DNA of 42,421 nucleotides, from assembly GCA_035717485.1 (NCBI GenBank), contig DASTIQ010000217.1, forward strand, positions 1 to 42,421, in the 5' to 3' direction. Position numbers and translations under genes: made by a program. The notes under the pieces were generated by a model that made no database searches, was not told the origin of the DNA, and was given only the letters and a program-made list of their open reading frames with translations. The stretch comes from Thermoanaerobaculia bacterium. GTDB lineage: Bacteria > Acidobacteriota > Thermoanaerobaculia > UBA5066 > DATFVB01. Below are positions 29,620-42,421 of this stretch, piece by piece. Position 1 is the first letter of the stretch; each line of letters begins with the position of its first letter.

Positions 29620-32175
29620 CTAGCCCCGCTGGATCTTCATCGCGCGGAGACTCGTCGACGAAGCCACGACCAGTCGGTACTTGTACACGGTGAGCGTGTG
29701 CAGCGTGGAGCCCGATCCGGCCGAGTTCCTGACCGTCAGGGTCACGGTGTACGTTCCGGATTTCGAGAACCGGTGCGACGGGTTCTGCAGGCTCGACGTG
29801 TTCGAGGCACCCGACGCGGTGTCGCCGAAGTTCCACGACCAGGACGTCGGAGAGCCGGTGGACGTGTCCGTGAACTGTTCGGTCAGCACCTTTCCGCCGT
29901 AGGCCGCCGTGAACGAGGCGACCGGAGCGACGACCGGGGCGTTGATCGCGACGGTGTTCGTCGTCGAAGCGCTCCCCGCGCTGTTGGTGGCCGTCAGACG
30001 GATCGTGTAGGTCCCGGCGACGCTGTAGACGTGGGTCGGGTTCTTCGCGGTCGAGGTGTTCGACGTCGAATACGGATCGCCGAAATTCCACGACCACGAA
30101 GTGGGGGAATTCAGCGTCGTGTCCGTGAATTGCACGGTCTGGCCCGCGGACGCCGGGTTCGGCGTGATCGAGAAGTGGGGGTCCGGGAGAGCCGCGGCCG
30201 GGGCCGAGACGGTGACTGCCTGCGATGCCGACGCGCTCCCGGCCGCATTGGAGGCCTTCAGGGTGACCGTGTACGTGCCGGCGCTCGCGTAGACGTGGGT
30301 CGGACTTTCGGTCGTCGACGTCCCTCCGTCGCCGAACGTCCACGACCAGGAGGTCGGCGATCCGGTCGAGGTGTCGGTGAACTGGGTCGATTGGTTCGGC
30401 GCGGGAACCGACGGCGAGAAGGAGAAGCTCGGAACGGGGGCGGTCGCCGCCGGATTCACGGTGACCGTGTTCGTCGTCGACGCGCTTCCGGCGCCGTTCG
30501 TGACCGTGAGCCGCACCGTGTACGTGCCGGCAGCCGCATAGGCGTGAGTGGGATTCTGCGCGGTCGAGGTGTTGGTCGTCGACGCGGCGTCGCCGAAATT
30601 CCAGCTCCACGCGGTGGGGGAGTTGAGCGAGGTGTCGGTGAACTGGACGGTCTGGTTCGCCGCCGCCGGGTTCGGGGAGATCGAGAAGTGCGGATCGGGC
30701 GCCGTCCCGGTGGACGTCGCCGCGCTCTTCGGCAGCAGCACGAAAACGTTGAACTCGGGTCCGGATGCCGGCGGCGTGGTCCAGCCGACGGGAGCGGCGA
30801 CGGACAAGCCGGTCATCGGGAGCGAGATCGATCCTCCGCCGTACGTGCCGGTGAGGACCGGCGCGCCGAACCAGTCCTGCGCGTTCCGGACTTCGAACGC
30901 CTGACCGACGGTGAGAACGCCGCTGACGTCGACCGGGACGGTCGCGGCGAGGCCCCAGTTGTAGACCGTGATGTTGGCGCGGCCGGCCTCGTACTTGTTC
31001 GGACGCACGACGACCTTCAGGTTGGCCGGGTCCGAGGAGTAGAAGGTGTTCGACGGATACTGCGAGGAGGTCCAGTTCACGAGAGACGAATAGATCGCGT
31101 TCCCGGTCAGGGTCGTGTTCGTGTTGGCGGAATTCAGGTCGTACTCGCCGTTCCCGGAGTAGTTCCCCGTCATCTGCGGGTTCGACGCGCCGATGCCGTA
31201 GGGGTAGTAACCCATGTTGAGGTTGATCCCGTTGCCCCACGCCGTGTAGTAGAGACTGTTGTTCGCGACGATCGGGTTCTGGGCGACCACGCCGCCGCCG
31301 ATGATGATGTTGTTGGCGGGGCTGTCGACGATCGAGCCGTTGTTGAAGATCGTGTTTCCCTCGATGTCGAAGTTGTTGAGATACGCGGTCTCGGATCCAT
31401 AGCACTGGATCCCGTTCTGGAAGTTCTCGAAGATGATGTTGTCCTTGATGGCCATCGTCCCGGTCAGGTTCTGCAGATAGAGGCCATGTCCGTGCCCGCG
31501 ATCCGGCGCGTCCCAGCCGTCGTAGTAGATGACCGAACCGTAGAACTCGCTTCCGACCGCTTCCTTCCAGAGGCCGGCGTCCTGGATGTCGTGGATGATC
31601 AGGTTGATGAACTTCAACCCCGCGCCGGTGCGCGAAGTCTGCTCGGTCGCCAGGTTGCCGCGCCCGATGTCGGTCGGGTTCGAGCCGGTCTGCGACGAAA
31701 CGCGATTCGGATCGGAGCTCATCACTTCGAAGCCCCAGTACCAGGTGTAGGAGCCCGAGACCATCAGGATCGACGTCCAGCCCGAGTTGCCTCCGTCGAT
31801 CGTGGCGCGCTCGCCGGGATACTGCCGCACGACGATCGGTGCGGCCGAGGTCCCGTTCAGATACGAGGAATACGTGCCGTGATAGACGCCGCCGCGCAGC
31901 CAGATGGTGTCGCCGGGTTTGGCGACGGTCTGGTTGAGGGCGGTCTGGAGGTCCCAAGGACTCGAAATCGAGCCGGTGCCGGAGGACGAGCCGCCGGGCG
32001 CGGCGTAGAAATCGGTGGCGCGGGCGGCGCTCGCGGCGGCCAGCACCGCCGCTCCGAGAAAGAGCCATCGGAGAGCACCCCGGGGCGCCGTTTCCCGGCG
32101 GAGAGCGGCCGCACGGACGCGGGTCTCCCCGGAAAGGCGCGGGAATTCCGCGCGCAGGACTCGATTCGAATTCAT
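29620..32175 (-). CDS. secreted beta-helix protein with four PKD domains
   Basis: 851-residue exported protein. A long basic n-region precedes a hydrophobic signal segment (LRWLFLGAAVLAAASAARA, about residues 35-53). Residues 55-430 look like a right-handed parallel beta-helix of the pectate-lyase/NosD kind: FYAAPGGSSSGTGS, PGDTIWLRGGVYHG, then turns rich in N such as NNIIIGGGVV and GNTIFNNGS. After a strand-rich linker come four PKD domains (about 490-840), each with SWNFGD or SWTFGD and GTYTVTL. It is probably a surface polysaccharide-binding or -cleaving protein. No sorting signal is seen at the C-terminus. GAGGGGG lies before ATG 32175. Confidence 0.85.
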   Translation of the reverse strand: MNSNRVLRAEFPRLSGETRVRAAALRRETAPRGALRWLFLGAAVLAAASAARATDFYAAPGGSSSGTGSISSPWDLQTALNQTVAKPGDTIWLRGGVYHGTYSSYLNGTSAAPIVVRQYPGERATIDGGNSGWTSILMVSGSYTWYWGFEVMSSDPNRVSSQTGSNPTDIGRGNLATEQTSRTGAGLKFINLIIHDIQDAGLWKEAVGSEFYGSVIYYDGWDAPDRGHGHGLYLQNLTGTMAIKDNIIFENFQNGIQCYGSETAYLNNFDIEGNTIFNNGSIVDSPANNIIIGGGVVAQNPIVANNSLYYTAWGNGINLNMGYYPYGIGASNPQMTGNYSGNGEYDLNSANTNTTLTGNAIYSSLVNWTSSQYPSNTFYSSDPANLKVVVRPNKYEAGRANITVYNWGLAATVPVDVSGVLTVGQAFEVRNAQDWFGAPVLTGTYGGGSISLPMTGLSVAAPVGWTTPPASGPEFNVFVLLPKSAATSTGTAPDPHFSISPNPAAANQTVQFTDTSLNSPTAWSWNFGDAASTTNTSTAQNPTHAYAAAGTYTVRLTVTNGAGSASTTNTVTVNPAATAPVPSFSFSPSVPAPNQSTQFTDTSTGSPTSWSWTFGDGGTSTTESPTHVYASAGTYTVTLKASNAAGSASASQAVTVSAPAAALPDPHFSITPNPASAGQTVQFTDTTLNSPTSWSWNFGDPYSTSNTSTAKNPTHVYSVAGTYTIRLTATNSAGSASTTNTVAINAPVVAPVASFTAAYGGKVLTEQFTDTSTGSPTSWSWNFGDTASGASNTSSLQNPSHRFSKSGTYTVTLTVRNSAGSGSTLHTLTVYKYRLVVASSTSLRAMKIQRG
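29640..30710 (-). repeat. four tandem PKD-coding repeats
   Basis: Units of about 252-261 bases recur; the anchor TCGCCGAA (complement strand of the FGD codons) falls at 29822, 30077, 30329 and 30590. The first and third units (from the protein N-terminus) are most alike, as are the second and fourth, suggesting duplication of a two-domain block. Confidence 0.75.
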
Positions 32176-32437: not shown

Positions 32438-33112
32438 GTGGGCAACGTTTCGGACAAGAAGCCCATTACCGTCTGTCTTTTCTGGGTCCATCCTCTCGTC
32501 CGCTCGGAGTTCGAGCGTGCGCTCCCCGGCCGCGAATTCCGACTCGAAACGCTGCGCCTCGAGCCGAAGCTCGACGTCCGGCAGATCGACGTGCCGCTCT
32601 CCTCGCTCTACGTGCTCGACGGGGCCTACGCCCGCGTCGCCGCCGAGGCGCTGGTCTCGGCCGTCCTCGTCCGGAACCCGGCCGGACGTGCGCTCGTCGT
32701 CGCCGAGGCGTTCGACGAAGCCTCCGCGTTCCCCCTCCTCCGCCTCGGCGTCAAAGGGCTCCTCACCTACGCGGAGCTCGGCGAGCGGCTCTCCTCGGCC
32801 CTCGAAGAGGTCGCGGAAGGGGGATTCTGGGTTCCGCGCGCGCTCCTCTCCCGCTTCATCGACACGACGCTCACGAACTCGTCTTCGCGCGCCCTTCCGG
32901 CCGCCGGGCTCACGCCCACCGGCCTGACCCGCCGTGAGCAGGAAGTGTTGAACGACCTCCTCGAGAATTTCTCGAACAAGGAGATCGCCAAGCGCCTCCG
33001 GATCTCCGAGCGCACGGCGAAATTCCACGTCTCGAACGTGCTCGCGAAGTACGGCGTGCGCCGGCGCGCCGACCTGATCCTCCTTTCCTACACCGACTCC
33101 CGGCGCGGCTGA
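32438..33112 (+). CDS. LuxR/NarL-type regulator with degenerate receiver
   Basis: 224 residues. The C-terminal LuxR helix-turn-helix is clear: LTRREQEVLNDLLENFSNKEIAKRLRISERTAKFHVSNVLAKYG. The N-terminal domain has the outline of a response-regulator receiver (VLD strand end, LGVKGLLTY with the conserved Lys), but the acidic pair after the first strand is replaced by CLFWVHPLVR. Phosphorylation is therefore doubtful. GTG 32438 follows a TTGCCC-17-TACGCT promoter; an in-frame ATG at 32378 would add a 20-residue tail. It is followed by the NusG-like gene and probably controls the downstream locus. Confidence 0.8.
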   Translation: MGNVSDKKPITVCLFWVHPLVRSEFERALPGREFRLETLRLEPKLDVRQIDVPLSSLYVLDGAYARVAAEALVSAVLVRNPAGRALVVAEAFDEASAFPLLRLGVKGLLTYAELGERLSSALEEVAEGGFWVPRALLSRFIDTTLTNSSSRALPAAGLTPTGLTRREQEVLNDLLENFSNKEIAKRLRISERTAKFHVSNVLAKYGVRRRADLILLSYTDSRRG

Positions 33113-33207: not shown

Positions 33208-33224
33208 TGGCATGCGGTGTGCTT
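33208..33224 (+). promoter_or_regulatory. candidate sigma-54 promoter of NusG-like gene
   Basis: TGGCATGCGGTGTGCTT has GG (33209-33210) and GC (33221-33222) ten bases apart and matches TGGCA and TGC of the -24/-12 consensus. Predicted start is near 33234, only about four bases before ATG 33238, in keeping with the short or absent leaders seen elsewhere here. Confidence 0.5.
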
Positions 33225-33237
33225 CGTCACCCCGGTG

Positions 33238-33822
33238 ATGCCTCTACTCAAACGTGAGCCCGACGTTTTTCCGGAGAGCCTTTTCGCCTCGCCCGGCGGC
33301 GCTCCCTGGACCGTCGCGCACGTGCGGAGCCGCCAGGAGAAAGTGCTCGCGCGGTTCCTCTCGCCGATTGGAATTCCGTTCTACGCGCCGCAGCGGGAGA
33401 AGCGGGCGCGCCGCAACGGACGGAACTTCGTCTCCTACCTCCCGCTCTTCCCCGGCTACGTGTTCCTCCGGGCGGCCGCGGAGGAGCGCGCGCAGATCTG
33501 GCGGAGCAACGTCGTGGTCCGGATGATCGACGTGCCCGACCAGGATCTGCTCGAGACGGAGCTCGCGCAGATCCACCGGCTGCAGCGTTCCGGCGCGCGG
33601 CTCGCCGCCGTGCGAGCGCTCGACCCGGGAGAGCCGGTCCGGGTCGTGGACGGACCCTTCGAGGGATATCTCGGCATCGTGGTCCGGGAGAGAGGCGCGG
33701 AGCGCCTTCTCGTCTCGGTTTCTCTTCTGCGGAAGACCGTCGCCGTCGAGTTCGAACGCGAGATGCTCGCGCCGCTCTCGATTCCCGCCGTTCTTCCGCC
33801 CGCGTCCGTCCCGGTCCTCTGA
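33238..33822 (+). CDS. NusG-family antiterminator (UpxY/RfaH/LoaP-like)
   Basis: 194-residue NusG paralogue. The N-terminal NGN domain begins WTVAHVRSRQEKVLARFL and includes FYAPQREKRARRNGRNF and LPLFPGYVFLR, the usual RNA-polymerase-binding blocks. The C-terminal KOW motif is GEPVRVVDGPFEGYLGIVV. Housekeeping NusG lies next to secE and ribosomal protein genes, which are absent here, so a locus-specific elongation factor is likely. Related paralogues control long capsule, exopolysaccharide or antibiotic operons. ATG 33238 is preferred over GTG 33217, which lies in the candidate sigma-54 -12 region. Confidence 0.87.
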   Translation: MPLLKREPDVFPESLFASPGGAPWTVAHVRSRQEKVLARFLSPIGIPFYAPQREKRARRNGRNFVSYLPLFPGYVFLRAAAEERAQIWRSNVVVRMIDVPDQDLLETELAQIHRLQRSGARLAAVRALDPGEPVRVVDGPFEGYLGIVVRERGAERLLVSVSLLRKTVAVEFEREMLAPLSIPAVLPPASVPVL

Positions 33823-33871
33823 CCGGACTCCCGGCGCGGAGCACAGCGACGCATCTGTCGGTACACCGAAA

Positions 33872-33890
33872 GGGGCGGAGCCTGCGCCCC
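33872..33890 (+). promoter_or_regulatory. small hairpin before UDP-sugar dehydrogenase gene
   Basis: GGGGCG and CGCCCC enclose a seven-base loop (GAGCCTG). The hairpin ends ten bases before the AGGAGG ribosome site of the dehydrogenase gene. It has no T-run. Possible target of the upstream NusG-like factor, but this is speculation. Confidence 0.3.
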
Positions 33891-33914
33891 GGCGAGGAAA
33901 AGGAGGAAATCCCC

Positions 33915-35288
33915 ATGTCGAGCGTTTCCGTCGTCGAGTTCGAGCGCCCCGCCGAAACCGCCGAAGCCCGTGCCGCCCGGCTGCTCGAACGGATCCGTTC
34001 GCGCGAGGCCCGCGTCGGCGTCGTCGGTCTCGGGTACGTGGGCCTTCCGCTCACGCTCGTGTTCAGCGAAAAAGGGTTCCCCGTCGCGGGCTTCGACCTC
34101 GACGGCGAAAAGGCGAAGATGCTGGCGGCCGGGCGGTCGTACATCCGGCACATCGACGGGGAGCGCGTCGCGCGGGCGAACGCGACCGGCCGGTACTCGG
34201 CGACGAACGACTTTCGCGGCATCGCCGATTGCGACGCCGTGCTGATCTGCGTCCCGACGCCGCTGACCCCCCAGCGCGAGCCGGACATGACCTACGTGGT
34301 CGCGACCGCCCGCGAGATCGCGGAGAACCTGCGCGAAGGGCAGCTCATCGTCCTCGAATCGACGACGTATCCGGGCACGACCGACGAGCTCGTTCGCGGG
34401 ATCCTCGAGGAGAAGACGGGATTGAGGTGCGGCGAGGACTTCTTCCTCGCATTTTCCCCGGAGCGCGAGGACCCGGGGAATCCCCGGTTCGGAACGGCGA
34501 CGATTCCCAAGGTCGTCGGAGGCGTCGACGAACGCTCCGGCGACGTCGCGCAGGCGCTCTACGACGCCGTCATCGAAGCCGGGACGGTGCGGGTATCCCA
34601 CTCCCGCGCCGCCGAGGCGACGAAACTGGTCGAAAACATCTTCCGGGCGGTCAACATCGCGCTCGTCAACGAGCTCAAGATCGTGTTCGAGCGGCTCGGC
34701 ATCGACATCTGGGAGGTGCTCGACGCGGCGTCCACGAAGCCGTTCGGATTCATGCGGTTCAACCCCGGCCCGGGATGGGGCGGGCACTGCATTCCCCTCG
34801 ACCCGTTCTACCTCGTCTGGAAAGCGCGCGAGTACGGGATCACGCCGAAGTTCATCGAGCTCGCCGGCGAGGTGAACATCCAGATGCCGCACTACGTCCT
34901 CGGAAAGCTCCAGCTCGCGCTGAACGACCGCGGAAAGCCGACGCGGGGGAGCCGCATCCTGGTCCTCGGCCTCGCGTACAAGAAGGACGTCGACGACGCG
35001 CGGGAGAGCCCGGCGTTCGAGCTCATCGACGGACTCCTCCGCCTCGGGGCGGACGTCAGCTATCACGATCCCCACGTCGCGAAAGCGCCGCGGATGCGCA
35101 CCTGGCCCGACCTCCCGCCGATGGAGTCGACGTCGCTGACCGCCGAGAACCTCGCCACCCAGGACGCCGTTCTGATCGTGACCGACCACAGCGCGGTCGA
35201 TTACGAGCTCGTCGCGCGTCACGCTCCGCTCGTCGTCGACACGCGCGGCATCTACCGCAACGGCCACCGGAACGTCGTGCGCGCGTGA
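33915..35288 (+). CDS. UDP-N-acetylglucosamine 6-dehydrogenase (WbpA/TviB-like)
   Basis: Nucleotide-sugar dehydrogenase of 457 residues oxidising the C6 hydroxyl to a carboxylate with two NAD+. N-terminal Rossmann motif VGVVGLGYVGLPL, sugar-binding middle helix with EATKLVENIFRAVNIALVNE, catalytic Cys292 in GWGGHCIPLDPFYL, and C-terminal LGLAYKKDVDDARESPA. The GGHCIPLDPFYL block and the KAREYG segment match the UDP-GlcNAc (WbpA/WbpO/TviB) branch rather than UDP-glucose dehydrogenases. AGGAGG lies eight bases before ATG. The stop overlaps the epimerase gene start. Confidence 0.88.
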   Translation: MSSVSVVEFERPAETAEARAARLLERIRSREARVGVVGLGYVGLPLTLVFSEKGFPVAGFDLDGEKAKMLAAGRSYIRHIDGERVARANATGRYSATNDFRGIADCDAVLICVPTPLTPQREPDMTYVVATAREIAENLREGQLIVLESTTYPGTTDELVRGILEEKTGLRCGEDFFLAFSPEREDPGNPRFGTATIPKVVGGVDERSGDVAQALYDAVIEAGTVRVSHSRAAEATKLVENIFRAVNIALVNELKIVFERLGIDIWEVLDAASTKPFGFMRFNPGPGWGGHCIPLDPFYLVWKAREYGITPKFIELAGEVNIQMPHYVLGKLQLALNDRGKPTRGSRILVLGLAYKKDVDDARESPAFELIDGLLRLGADVSYHDPHVAKAPRMRTWPDLPPMESTSLTAENLATQDAVLIVTDHSAVDYELVARHAPLVVDTRGIYRNGHRNVVRA

Positions 35289-36295
35289 AGACCATGGCGC
35301 CCGACTTCGACCGCGAGAGCGTCCTCGTCACCGGGGGCGCGGGGTTCATCGGCTCGCATCTCGTCGACGCGCTGCTCGCGCGCGGAGCGCAGGTGCGGGT
35401 GCTCGACAACCTCTCGACCGGGAGCCGCCGGAATCTCGCCCATGCCGCGGAGCGGATCGATTTTCGGCTCGGCGACATCCGCGATCCCGATGCCGTCCGG
35501 GAGGCCATGCGCGGCGTGAACCGGGTCTTCCACCAGGCGGCGCTCGGCTCCGTTCCCCGGTCCCTCGAAGACCCGGGCACCACCCTGGACGTCAACGTCA
35601 CCGGAACCGCGCGCGTGTTCGCGGGCGCGCGCGACGCGGGCGTGCGGCGCGTCGTCTACGCGTCGTCGTCGAGCGTCTACGGCGACAGCGACAAGCTTCC
35701 GAAGCGCGAAGGGGAGGAAGGAAAGCCCCTTTCCCCGTACGCGCTCTCCAAGCGGATGGACGAGGAGCTCGCGGACACGTTCCAGCGCTGCTTCGGCATG
35801 GAGCTCGTCGGCCTCCGCTATTTCAACGTGTACGGACCGCGGCAGAACCCCGACGGCGCGTACGCGGCGGTCATTCCCCGCTTCTTCAAGGCGTACCTCG
35901 GCGGGCAGCCGCCGGTGATCTTCGGGGACGGGGAGCAGAGCCGGGATTTCACGTTCGTGGCCGACGCCGTCGCCGCGAACCTCCTGGCTTCGGCAGTGGA
36001 CGCGAGCTGCTGCGGGAGGGCGTACAACGTCGCCGGGGGCCGCCGGACGACGCTTCTCGAGCTCGCGCGGCTCGTCGGCGAGGCGGCGGGCTCCTCCCGG
36101 GAGCCGCGCCACGCCCCGGAGCGTTCGGGCGACGTCCGTCACTCGCTCGCGGACCTCACGCTCTCGCGGAACACGCTCGGCTACTCCCCGGAATTCGATC
36201 TTCCCGAGGGACTCCCCCTCTCCCATCGCCACTATCTCGAATCTCTCGCCGCCTCGCTCCAGGCCGAGCCGGAGAGGATTCCGGTCGCGCGCTGA
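35285..36295 (+). CDS. UDP-N-acetylglucosamine 4-epimerase (WbpP/TviC-like SDR)
   Basis: Extended short-chain dehydrogenase of 336 residues. NAD-binding TGGAGFIGSH at the N-terminus; HQAALGSVPRSLEDP, a block typical of WbpP/TviC epimerases acting on N-acetylated sugars; catalytic SSSSVYG and YALSK; and RYFNVYGPRQNPDGAYAAVIP. With the dehydrogenase before it, the pair would make UDP-GalNAcA, as in Vi antigen or B-band O antigen pathways. GTG 35285 overlaps the previous stop as GTGA; ATG 35294 is an alternative start three codons in. Confidence 0.87.
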   Translation: MKTMAPDFDRESVLVTGGAGFIGSHLVDALLARGAQVRVLDNLSTGSRRNLAHAAERIDFRLGDIRDPDAVREAMRGVNRVFHQAALGSVPRSLEDPGTTLDVNVTGTARVFAGARDAGVRRVVYASSSSVYGDSDKLPKREGEEGKPLSPYALSKRMDEELADTFQRCFGMELVGLRYFNVYGPRQNPDGAYAAVIPRFFKAYLGGQPPVIFGDGEQSRDFTFVADAVAANLLASAVDASCCGRAYNVAGGRRTTLLELARLVGEAAGSSREPRHAPERSGDVRHSLADLTLSRNTLGYSPEFDLPEGLPLSHRHYLESLAASLQAEPERIPVAR

Positions 36296-36312: not shown

Positions 36313-38172
36313 ATGTCGTCGATCTCCGAGTCTTCGCGCCTTCTTCCGGAGCGGATTCCCGGGCTCCGCCGAGCCGAGACCGCCCCATCGGCACGTTTCG
36401 CGGTCGAAGAGCAGGCGCGCCGCCGGCCGGGGGCGCTCGCTCTCTCCGCCGGCGCCCGGCGCCTCACGTTCGGCGAGCTCGATGCGCTCGCCGAGACCTT
36501 CGCGGCGGAGCTCGCCGACACCGGAGTCTCCGCGGACCGGCCGGTCGCGATCGTCCTGGCCGATCCGGGCGACCGCGCCGTCGCTTCTTTGGCCGCGTGG
36601 AAAGCCGGCGCCGCGTACCTCCCGCTCGACCCCGATGCCCCCCGGAGCCGGCTCGCGTTCATGGTGCGCGACTGCGCGGCACCGCTCGTCGTCGCCGAGG
36701 ACGAGGCGACATGGCTGGAGCTGGGCGCCCCCGTGATCCCGTTCCGCCGCGATCGGCCGGCGCGCGCCGGGGGACGTCGCCCGGAGCCGGACGGCTCGTC
36801 GGGACTCGCCTACGTCATCTACACGTCGGGCTCGACCGGGACCCCGAAGGGCGTCGAGATCGAGCACGGAAGTCTTTCGAATCTGATCGCCTGGCACCGT
36901 CGGGCGTTCGGCGTCGGGCCCGCCGATCGAGCGTCGCAACTGGCCAATCCGGCCTTCGACGCGGCGGTCTGGGAGCTGTGGCCGTCTCTGGCGGCGGGCG
37001 CGAGCGTCCATTTTCCCGATCCCGCCCTCCGCGGCGATCCGGCGCGGCTCCGCGAGTGGATGCTCGCGGAAGGGATCAGTGTCGCGTTCGCCCCGACGCC
37101 CGTCGCCGAGCGTCTCCTCGCGCTCGACTGGCCCGCCGACGCGGCGCTCCGGCTCCTCCTGACGGGCGGCGACGTCCTGCATCGACGCCCGCCGGCCGGT
37201 CTCCCGTTCCGTCTGGTGAACAACTACGGCCCGACGGAGGCAACGGTGGTCGCGACTTCCGGATTCGTCGTCCCCGCGTCCTCCCTCGCGGGAGGGCTGC
37301 CGTCGATCGGGAGCCCGATCGACGGCGTCGAGGCGCTCGTCCTCGACGAGCGGGGAGAACTTTGCCCGGACGGGGAGCCCGGGGAGCTGTGCCTCGCGGG
37401 GGCCGGCCTCGCGCGCGGATACGTCGGGGGGACCGCGAGGCACCCGGGCGGGTTCGCCCCTCATCCCTTCCGAGGAGGCGAGCGGATGTATCGCACGGGC
37501 GACCGGGTGCGCCGGCGCCACGACGGTCGGTTGGAGTTCCTCGGGAGGCTGGACGGACAGGTCAAGATCCGCGGATTCCGGGTCGAGCCGGCGGAAATCG
37601 AGGCCGCCCTCGAGACGCACCCCGATGTGCGGTCGAGCCTCGCCGTCGCGAAGACGGAGCGGGACGGAGAAGTTCGTCTCGTCGCCTACGTCGTTTCCGA
37701 AGAGGGCCGGCGGCCGGCGGATCTCCGCGAACATCTCCGCTCCCGTCTTCCCGAATACATGGTGCCGTCGGTGTTCGTGACGATCGACGAGTTCCCGCTG
37801 ACGTCGCACGGAAAGATCGACCGCGAAGCGCTTCCCGCGCCGCCGCGGGAAACGCCGGGCGCTTCGGCCGGCCGGCCGCCCGGATCGACGGCCGAGGCGC
37901 GCGTCGCGAAGATCGCGGCGGAGCTCCTCCGTCTCGACCGGATCGGAGTCGACGAGAATTTCTTCTCGCTCGGCGGGCACTCGCTCCTGGGAACCCAGAT
38001 GATCGCTCGCGTCCGCGACGCGTTTGGCATCGAGCTTCCCCTCCGCACGATCTTCGAGGCGCCGACCGTCTCCCGGCTCGCGGCCGAGGTCGAGAAAGCC
38101 GTGCGGCGCCGGGTCGACGAAATGAGCGAAGAGGAGGCGCGGCGCATCGCGGGCGCGGGAGAGGGCGCATGA
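36313..38172 (+). CDS. NRPS adenylation-thiolation protein, leucine-type code
   Basis: 619-residue A-T didomain with no condensation domain. Adenylation core motifs run in order: KAGAAYLPLDP (A2), YTSGSTGTPKGVEIEH (A3), FDAAVWELWPSL (A4, Asp216), NNYGPTEATVV (A5), GELCLAGAGLARGY (A6), YRTGDRVR (A7), [20 protein letters not shown] (A8), LPEYMVPS (A9), HGKIDREAL (A10). The carrier domain has LGGHSLLG with phosphopantetheine Ser557. By manual alignment the specificity residues read D-A-W-F-L-G-N-V-V-K, a code associated with leucine. A short acidic tail (VDEMSEEEARRIAG) may dock partners. The stop overlaps the P450 start as ATGA. Confidence 0.9.
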   Translation: MSSISESSRLLPERIPGLRRAETAPSARFAVEEQARRRPGALALSAGARRLTFGELDALAETFAAELADTGVSADRPVAIVLADPGDRAVASLAAWKAGAAYLPLDPDAPRSRLAFMVRDCAAPLVVAEDEATWLELGAPVIPFRRDRPARAGGRRPEPDGSSGLAYVIYTSGSTGTPKGVEIEHGSLSNLIAWHRRAFGVGPADRASQLANPAFDAAVWELWPSLAAGASVHFPDPALRGDPARLREWMLAEGISVAFAPTPVAERLLALDWPADAALRLLLTGGDVLHRRPPAGLPFRLVNNYGPTEATVVATSGFVVPASSLAGGLPSIGSPIDGVEALVLDERGELCPDGEPGELCLAGAGLARGYVGGTARHPGGFAPHPFRGGERMYRTGDRVRRRHDGRLEFLGRLDGQVKIRGFRVEPAEIEAALETHPDVRSSLAVAKTERDGEVRLVAYVVSEEGRRPADLREHLRSRLPEYMVPSVFVTIDEFPLTSHGKIDREALPAPPRETPGASAGRPPGSTAEARVAKIAAELLRLDRIGVDENFFSLGGHSLLGTQMIARVRDAFGIELPLRTIFEAPTVSRLAAEVEKAVRRRVDEMSEEEARRIAGAGEGA

Positions 38173-39419
38173 GCACCGTTCCGTCGGCCCGACCGGAGTC
38201 CGATCCGTCGCTCTCCCTCTTCCAGCTCCTCGATCCGGCGGTGCTCGCGAACCCGTATCCGCTCTACGCGCGGCTCCGGACCGAAGATCCCGTCCACTGG
38301 GACCCCTTCCTTCATGCGTGGGTGGTGACCCGGTACGCCGACGTGCTGACGGTCCTGCACGACTATTCGGCGGACCGGACGCCGACGCCCGATCAGCTCG
38401 CGGCGATGGGGCTCGAGAGCCTGACGCCGATCGCCGCCGTCATGGTCCGACAGATGCTCTTCATGGATGCGCCGGCCCACACTCGGCTGCGGGGGCTGGC
38501 GTCGGTCGCGTTCTCTCCCCGCCGCGTCGAGGTGCTGCGCGGGCACATCCAGGAGATCGCCGACCGCCTCATCGACGGCGCGCCGGGGGGCCGGATGGAC
38601 CTCATCGATCAGTTCGCGAACCCGCTTCCCGCGATCGTGACGGCGGAGATGCTCGGCGTTCCGGTCGAAGACCACGACCGGCTCAAGCGCTGGTCCGCGG
38701 ATTTCGCCGAGATGCTCGGGAACTTCCAGCACAACCCGGACCGCGTGCCGCGGGTCCTCCGGAGCGTCGAGGAGATGACGGCGTACTTCCGGGAGGCGAT
38801 CGCCTCGCAGAGCCGCGCGCCGCGCGAGGGCCTCGTGCGGTCGCTGCTGACGGCCGAGATCGACGGAGATCGCCTGAGCGAAGAAGAAGTGATCGCCAAC
38901 TGCATCGTGACGATGGTCGGCGGGCAGGAGACGACGACGAACCTGATCGGCAACGGAATGCTCACCCTCCTCCGGAACCCGGAGGCGCTCGAGCGCCTCC
39001 GCTCGGACCCGTCGCTCACCCCGTCGGCGGTCGAGGAGCTCCTCCGGTACGAGAGCCCCAGCCAGCACACGGCGCGGATGGCGCCCTCCGACCGCGAGCT
39101 CGGCGGACGCCCGATCCGGAAACGCCAGGCCGTGATCGCGGTGATGGGGGCGGCCAATCGGGATCCGGAGCGGTTTCCGGATCCCGACCGGCTCGATCTG
39201 TCGCGTCAGCCGAATCGCCACGTCGCCTTCGGCTGGGCGGCGCACTTCTGCTTCGGCGCCCCGCTCGCGCGCCTCGAAGGACAGATCGCGTTCGACACCC
39301 TCCTGCGCCGTCTCCCGGAGCTGCGGCTCCAGCCGGGGCCGCTCGAGTGGCGCGAGAACCTCGGGCTCCGCGGACTGAAGTCCCTTCCGGTGTCGTTCCG
39401 GTCGGCCGCGGCGGCGTGA
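38169..39419 (+). CDS. cytochrome P450, probably acting on carrier-bound amino acid
   Basis: 416-residue soluble bacterial P450. I-helix motif VGGQETTTN, K-helix EELLR (ExxR), and haem loop FGWAAHFCFGAPLARLE with thiolate Cys361. The loop has Ala where the usual FGxGxHxC has Gly. Overlapping the A-T gene start-to-stop and the next NRPS gene, it fits the recurrent arrangement in which a P450 beta-hydroxylates an amino acid held on an A-T protein. With a leucine code the expected product would be beta-hydroxyleucine, but the reaction is inferred from context. No ferredoxin or reductase gene is adjacent. Confidence 0.88.
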   Translation: MSTVPSARPESDPSLSLFQLLDPAVLANPYPLYARLRTEDPVHWDPFLHAWVVTRYADVLTVLHDYSADRTPTPDQLAAMGLESLTPIAAVMVRQMLFMDAPAHTRLRGLASVAFSPRRVEVLRGHIQEIADRLIDGAPGGRMDLIDQFANPLPAIVTAEMLGVPVEDHDRLKRWSADFAEMLGNFQHNPDRVPRVLRSVEEMTAYFREAIASQSRAPREGLVRSLLTAEIDGDRLSEEEVIANCIVTMVGGQETTTNLIGNGMLTLLRNPEALERLRSDPSLTPSAVEELLRYESPSQHTARMAPSDRELGGRPIRKRQAVIAVMGAANRDPERFPDPDRLDLSRQPNRHVAFGWAAHFCFGAPLARLEGQIAFDTLLRRLPELRLQPGPLEWRENLGLRGLKSLPVSFRSAAAA

Positions 39420-42400
39420 TGTCCCCACCGGAGCTCTCCGAAGCCAAGCGGCGGGTCCTCGAGAGCTGTCTCCGCGGCGAGCGGCTCCCGGCGGAACCCC
39501 CGCGGCCGGTCGCGGCGCGCGCCGGAGGCCCGGTTCCGGCGACGGCGGGCCAGCGCGAGATCTGGATGCACGAGCAGCTCGCCGGCCGCCCGATCTACAA
39601 CGAGTCGGCGACGATCCGGCGGCGCGGCGACCTCGACGAGGACGCGCTCGACCGGGCGCTTTCCGAAATCGTCCGCCGGCACGAATCGTGGCGCACGCGC
39701 TTCACGGTCGCCGGCGGACGGCTCGTTCAGCAGGTCGAGCCCGCGTTCCGAATCCCCGTCGCGCGGGAGGACCTCCGGGCGCTCCTTCCGGAGGCGCGCG
39801 AGAGACGCGCCGCGGAGCTCGCGGCCGCCGACGCGGCGCTCCCGTTCGACCTCTCGCGGCCGCCGCTCTTCCGGGCGCGCCTGATCCGGTTCGCCGACGA
39901 CGACCACCGGTTGTTCCTGACGATCCATCACCTCATCTTCGACACCGCGTCGCTGTTCGGAACGTTCTTCCCGGAGCTCGTCGGGATCTACGAGGCCTTC
40001 CGTGCCGGCCGGCCTTCGCCGTTGCCGCCGCCGCCGGTGCAATTCGCCGACTACGCGGCGTGGGAGGCGGATCGAATCCTGCCCCCGGAAGCGGTCGAGT
40101 TCTGGCGCGAGCGGCTCGCCGACCTGCCGGCGCCCACCGCGCTCCCTTCGGATCGCGAGCGACCGGGCGAGATCGCGGGGGTCGGCGCCGTCCGGCGGGT
40201 GGAATTTCCGGCCGAAGTGCGTGACGGAGCCGCTGGGCTCGCCGAAGAATGCGGCGCGACCCCGTTCGTCGTGCTCTTCGCATCGCTGGCCGCGGCGCTC
40301 TCCCGCTTCACCGGAGACGACGATCTCGTGCTCGGGTGCGTCTCGGCGGCCCGGCCCCGGACCGAATTCGAGGATGTCCTCGGATACTTCCTGAATCCGG
40401 TCCTGCTGCGAACGTCGGTTGCGGGCGACCCCTCTTTCCGGGATCTCGTCTCGCGGGCCCGCGAAAGCGTCGTTTCGGCCCTTGCGCACGCGGAGGTGCC
40501 GTACGAGCGCCTCGCCGCCGAGGTCCCGGGGCGCGGCGGTGCGCCGCTGTTCCGGATCCTTCTCTCCTACGAGCCGCCCCGCGCGCCCGTTCCGCCGGGC
40601 TGGGACCTGACCCTTTTCGAAGCCTCGAGCGGCAGCGCGAAATTCGACGTTTCGCTCGAGATGGAGAGCCGGCCGGAGGGAATCGTGGGCCGCTTCCTCT
40701 ACGACGCGGATCTCTACGACGCGGAATCGATCCGCGTCTTCGAGGCGCACTGGCGCGCCCTCCTCGGCTCCGCTCTCGCAGACCCCGATCGCCGGATCTC
40801 GGAGCTCGCGCTCGCCGGGGAAACGCCGGCGGACATCGGAGCGCCGGCGGGAACGTCGATGCGGCCGGCGCCGGTCGAGTTCGACCGTCGCGCGTCCGAG
40901 CTGGCGTCGGCGCCCGCGCTCCGATTCCACGGCAGGACGACGACGTACGGAGAGCTCGCCGGACGAGTCACGCGGATCGCCGCGGCACTGCAGAATCGCG
41001 GAATCGGGCGCGAGTCGATCGTCGCTCTCGCGATGCCGCGATCCGACGATCGCGTGGCGGCGATCCTCGCCATCGGCCGCGCGGGGGCCGCGTGGCTGCC
41101 GCTCGGCTCGGACTGGCCTCCCGCCCGCGTCGCCGCCGTTCTCGAACGCTCCCGTCCCGCCCTCGTGATCTCCTCCGGGAGGCCGGCGGCCTTCGGCGGC
41201 GTTCCGAGCGTCCCGCTCGTCGACCTCGAGACCGAGCCGGGATGGACTCTCGACGGCATCCCGGAGCTTTCCGATCTCGCCTACGTCCTGTACACCTCCG
41301 GTTCGACGGGGGAGCCGAAGGGAGTGGCGATCGAACACCGGCCGCTCGCGAACCTCCTCGCCTGGAGCCAGCGCGCGTTCCCTCTGGGCCGGGGAGACCG
41401 GGTTCTCCAGAAGGCCCCGCTCGGCTTCGACGCCTCGGTCTGGGAGATCTACGCTCCGCTCGTCGCGGGAGCCACCCTCGTCGTCGCGCCTCCCGGCGCC
41501 GGCGCCGATCCCCGCCTGGTCGCGGCCCTCCTTCGCGAGGAGCGGATCACGCACCTGAAGCTCGTTCCCTCGCTCCTCCGGATTCTGGTCACGCTCCCGG
41601 ACTTCGCCGAGGCGCCGGCGCTGCGGCACGTCTTCTGCGGAGGAGAGGCGATCCCGGCGGACCTCGTCCGGGAGTTCTTCCGGGTGAGCCGTGCCGAGCT
41701 CCACAATCTCTACGGGCCGACCGAAACGTGCGTCGACGTGGCGTCGTACCGCTGCCGCCCGCAGGACGCCGGGCGCCGCGTTCCGATCGGGACCGCGATC
41801 GACGGCGCCCGCCTCGACGTGCTCGATCGCCGGGGACGAAGAACCCCGGCGGGAGCTCCCGGGGAGCTGTACGTCGGCGGCGTCCCGCTCGCGCGCGGAT
41901 ATCTCGGCCGGGAAGATCTCACCCGCGATCGCTTCGTTCCGGATCCGTTCGGCGCCCCCGGCGACCGTCTCTACCGGACGGGAGACCGGGTGCGGCGCCG
42001 GGCGGACGGCGAGATCGAATTCCTCGGGCGCGTCGACGACCAGCGAAAGGTCCGAGGCGTCCGCGTCGAGCCCGCGGAGATCGAGGCGGCCCTTCGCCGC
42101 TGTCCCGGCGTCGAAGACGCGGCCGTCGCGGTCCGCGGAGAAGGTCTGGCCGCAACGCTCGCCGCCTACGTGGCCGCGCCGGCGGCGGCGTCCGAGGCGG
42201 CCGCTCGCCGGGAGCTCGCCCGCGCCCTGCGGGAACGGGTCGCGTCGATTCTCCCGCGGGCCTTCGTTCCGGAGGCGATCACGGTCCTCGCCTCGCTTCC
42301 CCTCACCGCGTCGGGAAAGGTGGACCGGCGGGCGCTCCCCGAGCCCGAACGCTTCTTCGAGAGCGCCGCCGCGCCCGGATCCCGCGAAGAGCGCCTGCTC

Positions 42401-42421
42401 GTCGAGATCTGGCGGGAGGTG
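39419..42421 (+). CDS. NRPS condensation-adenylation-(thiolation) protein, 3' end cut by window
   Basis: Open to the window edge (1001 codons). A condensation domain occupies about residues 38-460: [13 protein letters not shown] (C1-like), IHHLIFDT at 169-176 (HHxxxD with Thr instead of Gly), [18 protein letters not shown] and VPYERLA. The adenylation domain follows: [28 protein letters not shown] (Asp671), [53 protein letters not shown] and [12 protein letters not shown]. Specificity residues read by eye are D-A-W-K-F-G-L-V-D-K, nearest to glutamine/glutamate-type codes, with low certainty. The window stops as the carrier domain begins. ATG overlaps the P450 stop (TGATG). Further modules probably lie to the right. 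Confidence 0.93.

Follow-up and report, generated by a model that had tools for sequence, protein, structure and literature searches.

The question raised by this locus is whether a cytochrome P450 encoded next to a leucine-coded A-T protein acts on leucine while the amino acid is bound to a carrier. The window analysed here (the whole stretch of 42,421 nucleotides, from a Thermoanaerobaculia bacterium) is an entire contig, C217, one of the 339 that make up a 3.8 Mb genome, and its right end holds three genes on the plus strand. The first encodes a stand-alone A-T protein of 619 amino acids (36313-38172; ATG at 36313, stop at 38170-38172), in which Pfam detected AMP-binding, AMP-binding_C and PP-binding only, the last being the T (carrier) domain with the motif FFSLGGHSLL (37900-38088). 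The second encodes the P450 (38169-39419; ATG at 38169, stop at 39417-39419; Pfam p450), with GGQETT in the I-helix, an ExxR motif and the heme-ligand Cys361 in FGWAAHFCFG, so that all three motifs of a functional P450 are intact. The third encodes a C-A-(T) NRPS protein (39419-42421; Condensation, AMP-binding and AMP-binding_C), which starts with the ATG at 39419 and whose frame is still open at the contig end; its T domain breaks off after "..LLVEIWREV" and picks up on contig C138 as "GIHDNLFDLGGNSLL..". The genes overlap by 1-4 bases, the A-T/P450 junction being an ATGA overlap. Gene order, translational coupling and the lack of a condensation domain on the A-T protein are as described in the original prediction, which took the trio to point to a probable peptide initiated by beta-hydroxyleucine.

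Adenylation codes were read at GrsA positions 235/236/239/278/299/301/322/330/331/517, using a GrsA sequence verified against 1AMU. The code proposed earlier for the A-T protein, DAWFLGNVVK, was unchanged on this alignment and was also obtained by pairwise alignment, a reading that slips on some other A domains. In a survey of Leu/Ile/Val A domains from bacteria, DAWFLGNVVK ranks with the most frequent codes (PMC12283262), and in laxaphycins it is used at Leu and 3-OH-Leu positions alike (PMC7524897). Leucine is thus supported as the predicted specificity of the A-T protein. For the C-A protein, the first GrsA alignment and the pairwise alignment both gave DAWKFGLVDK, a code that we tentatively take to be Glu/Gln-like by analogy. 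A crowded MAFFT alignment had placed L or I at position 278 in two A domains (L in the C-A protein); this reading was dropped, since the pairwise and first alignments give K.

We searched 84,980 species genomes with the P450 as query. This single scan returned 80 loci with relatives at 67-78% identity over the best segment, distributed according to the record titles over about eight phyla (Acidobacteriota, Rokubacteria, Verrucomicrobiota, Chloroflexota, Alphaproteobacteria, Planctomycetota, Actinomycetota and Dormibacterota). Most loci come from MAGs, and the named-strain records include Thermogemmatispora, Dictyobacter, Roseomonas, Rhodococcus and a Bryobacterales strain. An A-T gene lies on the same strand within 700 bases upstream of the P450 gene in 68 of the 80 loci. 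The code of these upstream proteins is exactly DAWFLGNVVK in 58 cases, a one-residue variant in six, and truncated but consistent in four. Among the other 12 loci the A-T gene is mostly displaced, reversed or truncated, and it was absent from the stretch examined in four (L037, L072, L089 and L095). In a tree of 165 A domains, the 67 full-length cassette domains, together with three displaced ones, form one clade with a support of 1.0, into which the A domain of the window falls. Distances between A-T proteins and between P450s were correlated (Mantel r = 0.81, p = 0.001, n = 65), a value to which shared genome descent contributes. The pairing is not due to chance, the same pair with the same code occurring in dozens of genomes, and in many phyla the two genes have been passed on together. 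When 60 relatives of the window's genome were searched, the congener alone had a close P450 (89% identity), a distribution that fits horizontal acquisition.

The surroundings of the pair are variable. Downstream of the P450 gene we found C-A-T-TE proteins, coded for Val, Gly or another residue, together with a PPTase; elsewhere there are longer assembly lines, or a TE only. Some relatives have a C-A-T protein ahead of the A-T protein. In 14 acidobacterial loci (L032, L036, L038, L039, L049, L051, L054, L056, L058, L065, L066, L076, L079 and L086) a single open frame joins the P450 to a (C-)A-T-TE protein, through linkers that vary in length and sequence. The conserved pairing, the shared history and these fusions argue for a mobile leucine-oxidising cassette rather than a late tailoring gene. 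Our main reading, to which we give a probability of roughly 0.7, is that the P450 would oxidise carrier-bound leucine, at whichever position of the side chain. Besides the pairing and the fusions to NRPS modules, the precedent of Qui18/Qui15 points to this substrate: in that A-PCP and P450 system, Trp is hydroxylated only when loaded on the carrier (PMC3578932).

Comparison with the aminoacyl-carrier beta-hydroxylases NovH/NovI, NikQ, Qui18/Qui15 and OxyD revealed both likeness and difference. As in these systems, a stand-alone A-T protein adjoins a P450 (619 amino acids here, 611 for Qui18), a single amino-acid code is defined, and the amino acid would be oxidised on its carrier before assembly. 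Here the code is for leucine rather than Tyr, His or Trp, the A-T protein would feed a C-A-T protein, and relatives show P450-NRPS fusions. Whereas Qui18/Qui15 requires an MbtH protein (PMC3578932), none was found in the window's genome or in that of its sister species, the same search being positive in E. coli and B. subtilis. The missing MbtH counts against the main reading; an MbtH-like partner is an accessory that many A domains do not need.

The lineage of the P450 is a second point against it, and bears on the chemistry. Its identity to P450BioI and CYP267B1 is 41-43%, against only 30-32% to P450sky and OxyD, which fall outside its family in the tree; its assignment as a P450sky/OxyD-type enzyme was therefore dropped. 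P450sky of the skyllamycin pathway acts on NRPS carrier-bound residues, leucine included, within multimodular proteins and not on a dedicated A-T protein; the P450 of the window, 30% identical to it, has such a partner. By sequence, this P450 appears to lie on another branch than the aminoacyl beta-hydroxylases known so far. Of the earlier proposal that the P450 beta-hydroxylates a carrier-bound amino acid, its attachment to the A-T protein is supported, but it lies outside the lineage on which the analogy with skyllamycin and glycopeptide enzymes is based. P450BioI (CYP107H) is the closest solved structure both by sequence (41%) and by fold, its complexes with ACP ranking first when an AlphaFold2 model (pLDDT 85.6) was submitted to Foldseek; no NCBIfam model scored above its cut-off. 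BioI also takes its substrate on a carrier protein, but this substrate is a fatty acyl-ACP, whose carbon chain it cleaves for biotin, and the enzyme belongs to no NRPS. Enzymes of this neighbourhood often work on carrier-bound substrates, a point in favour of the main reading. Of the P450s outside the family whose gene context was inspected, the nearest are two from Nostoc plasmids (47%, the best plasmid match, and 43%), each with a FAAL-ACP protein on one side and PKS/NRPS genes on the other (L139, L140). The order of ligase-carrier protein, P450 and assembly line is the same as in the window, but the ligase is of the fatty-acyl-AMP type and not a Leu A domain, and the P450s fall outside the family clade. 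A Streptomyces plasmid P450 (45%) was found without a FAAL-ACP or PKS/NRPS-type neighbour.

Given the gene arrangement, beta-hydroxylation of the carrier-bound leucine would be the likeliest chemistry, with odds a little better than even. The characterised A-PCP/P450 pairs covered in PMC3578932, loaded with Tyr, His or Trp, beta-hydroxylate their residue. A system with a similar proposed product is PlyR of the polyoxypeptin pathway, a NikQ-like enzyme (37%) whose cluster encodes A, PCP and TE in genes of their own; it is a proposed beta-hydroxylase of PCP-bound leucine, giving 3-hydroxyleucine on its carrier (PMC3943440). Homology does not give the oxidation position, and nothing in the sequence fixes beta. 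The same cassette could oxidise leucine otherwise, by gamma- or delta-hydroxylation, desaturation or a multi-step oxidation as in BioI, an alternative that we consider possible but clearly less likely. It draws on the separation of the family from known beta-hydroxylases, on its proximity to BioI with its ACP-bound acyl chains, and on invariant stretches of its own. These include LGNFQHNP and FGWAAHFCFG; the I-helix motif GGQETT, with its acid-alcohol pair, is present in 82 of 84 sequences, and C361 is invariant. The P450 of the window carries both MVGGQETTTNLI and LGNFQHNP, which together with an A domain of the cassette clade mark the cassette.

That the P450 is instead a late tailoring enzyme, acting on a peptidyl carrier or on the released product and lying beside the A-T gene by chance, is improbable. 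The BioI/CYP107/CYP267 neighbourhood does hold late macrolide tailoring P450s (PikC, EryF), a third point against the main reading, and this is the sole P450 in the window's genome. Yet pairing with the Leu A-T protein is kept while the other modules all vary, two loci (L074 and L085) consist of A-T, P450 and TE only, and the P450 is more conserved across loci (mean identity 68%) than the A domain (52%). Still less probable is release of the modified leucine as a free amino acid and its re-activation by another module, for which the type II TE proposed to release beta-hydroxy-Trp in the echinomycin pathway (PMC3578932) and the relatives with A-T, P450 and TE only speak, but the next gene in the window encodes a C-A-T protein and the cluster pieces read hold no second Leu-coded module or stand-alone TE.

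To the right of the window the cluster continues on two further contigs, C138 and C97, outside the sequence on which the original prediction was based; the order C217-C138-C97 rests on contigs of a congeneric sister species. Contig C138 (minus strand) opens with the rest of a T domain. Sister contig C307 carries the A-T, P450 and C-A-T genes and next to them the gene with which C138 begins; when C217 and C138 are aligned to C307, they are 18 bases apart. Another sister contig, C30, overlaps C138 at its end and C97 at its start, and supplies about 2 kb that are absent in the window's genome, corresponding to one C domain plus half of an A domain. From the A-T protein on, the NRPS genes encode A-T, P450, C-A-T, an A-T-TE protein with a remnant of a C domain, C-A-T-TE, a TauD-type oxygenase, a second A-T protein, a C-A-T protein and a PPTase. 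The codes of the later modules are presumably those of Asn (DLTKVGEVGK, A-T-TE), Val (DAFWLGGTFK, C-A-T-TE), Asp (DLTKVGHVGK, second A-T) and a Gly-like residue (DIAQLGLIWK, last C-A-T). The first 250 residues of the A-T-TE protein (L015 6807-10298, minus strand) resemble the C-terminal remnant of a C domain, and two adjacent proteins in this region each terminate in a TE. The Asp-coded A-T protein, which like the first lacks a C domain, adjoins the TauD-type oxygenase (L015 1-2770, minus strand); this second oxygenase/A-T pair possibly makes beta-hydroxyaspartate.

According to the reading of a carrier-tethered leucine oxidation, the A domain would adenylate L-Leu and load the T domain of its own protein, and the P450 would bind leucyl-T and oxidise its side chain, most likely to 3-hydroxyleucyl-T. 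A C domain would then accept the modified residue in trans; it probably belongs to the next protein, with its Glu/Gln-like module. The Asn, Val, Asp (with the TauD-type oxygenase) and Gly-like modules on C138 and C97 would contribute the remainder. Since six A domains stand against three complete C domains, two of the A-T proteins being C-less, the order of the residues, and hence whether the peptide is initiated by leucine, is not readable from the cluster. Beyond leucine loading and the A-T/P450 pairing, which are strongly supported, we infer the substrate of the P450, the oxidation position, the residue order and the product. No known product was found, in agreement with the original view that it appears undescribed.

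In both sister species the NRPS genes are located within what appears to be a single long co-directional polysaccharide-type operon (window 33217-36295; L106 1-7547; L138 1-20000). The genes from the regulator to the epimerase described next are on the plus strand. A LuxR/GerE-type regulator (32438-33112; GerE, E=6.9e-16) lies immediately upstream of the operon, at the same place in the sister genome. The operon is headed by a NusG-like protein (33217-33822; Pfam NusG, E=2.6e-8), conserved in the sister genome and a probable processive antiterminator; NusG-like genes are also present upstream of the cassette in L046, L049 and L054. These are followed by a UDP-HexNAc-uronic acid dehydrogenase (33915-35288; WbpO/WecC-like, from Pfam and from UDP-ManNAcA and NDP-GalNAcA dehydrogenases as best PDB sequence matches) and a UDP-HexNAc 4-epimerase (35285-36295; WbpP/WbgU-like, from Pfam and the PDB matches WbpP and WbgU), whose gene stops 17 bases ahead of the A-T start. 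Past the PPTase come an ABC-2 permease, NeuB, a UDP-GlcNAc 2-epimerase, a NeuA-type cytidylyltransferase and a Wzt-like ATPase, then an asparagine-synthase homologue and glycosyltransferases; the operon holds a Wzm/Wzt-like exporter besides its sugar genes. Beside the cluster, a large protein with four PKD domains (29620-32175, minus strand) is conserved in the sister genome. Iterative local profiles detected at least one polysaccharide-type gene in 30 of the 80 loci, a plain observation without a background rate.

The logic of an A-T protein working with a P450 is known already. What appears to be undescribed is a cassette specific for leucine with a P450 of this lineage, as well as its breadth and its fusions: we found no description of a Leu-A-T/P450 cassette or of P450-NRPS fusions in the open-access literature searched, nor of NRPS genes in capsule or O-antigen loci. 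The polysaccharide-type operon in two sister species and the TauD/Asp A-T pair are further unusual points. A broader, speculative proposal, which we regard as rather doubtful, is that of a mobile, self-contained Leu-A-T/P450 module, its P450 recruited from acyl-carrier P450s independently of the known aminoacyl hydroxylases, that would feed an oxidised leucine to many unrelated small NRPSs across about eight phyla. In this lineage, where it lies in a polysaccharide operon, it would provide a peptide with oxidised leucine that is either linked to a nonulosonate/uronate glycan or leaves the cell together with it.

What began as a guess from a single contig has become a recognisable and testable family, in which the A-T/P450 pair stays intact amid changing surroundings in soil bacteria of about eight phyla. 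Its chemistry is open to direct access through the natural P450-NRPS fusions and through minimal loci of named strains, which include Dictyobacter kobayashii and Rhodococcus yunnanensis, and the motifs of the P450 provide a marker with which peptides containing oxidised leucine can be sought in such soil bacteria. Should the link to the operon hold, the cluster would offer an unusual example of an assembly line that produces a glycan substituent.
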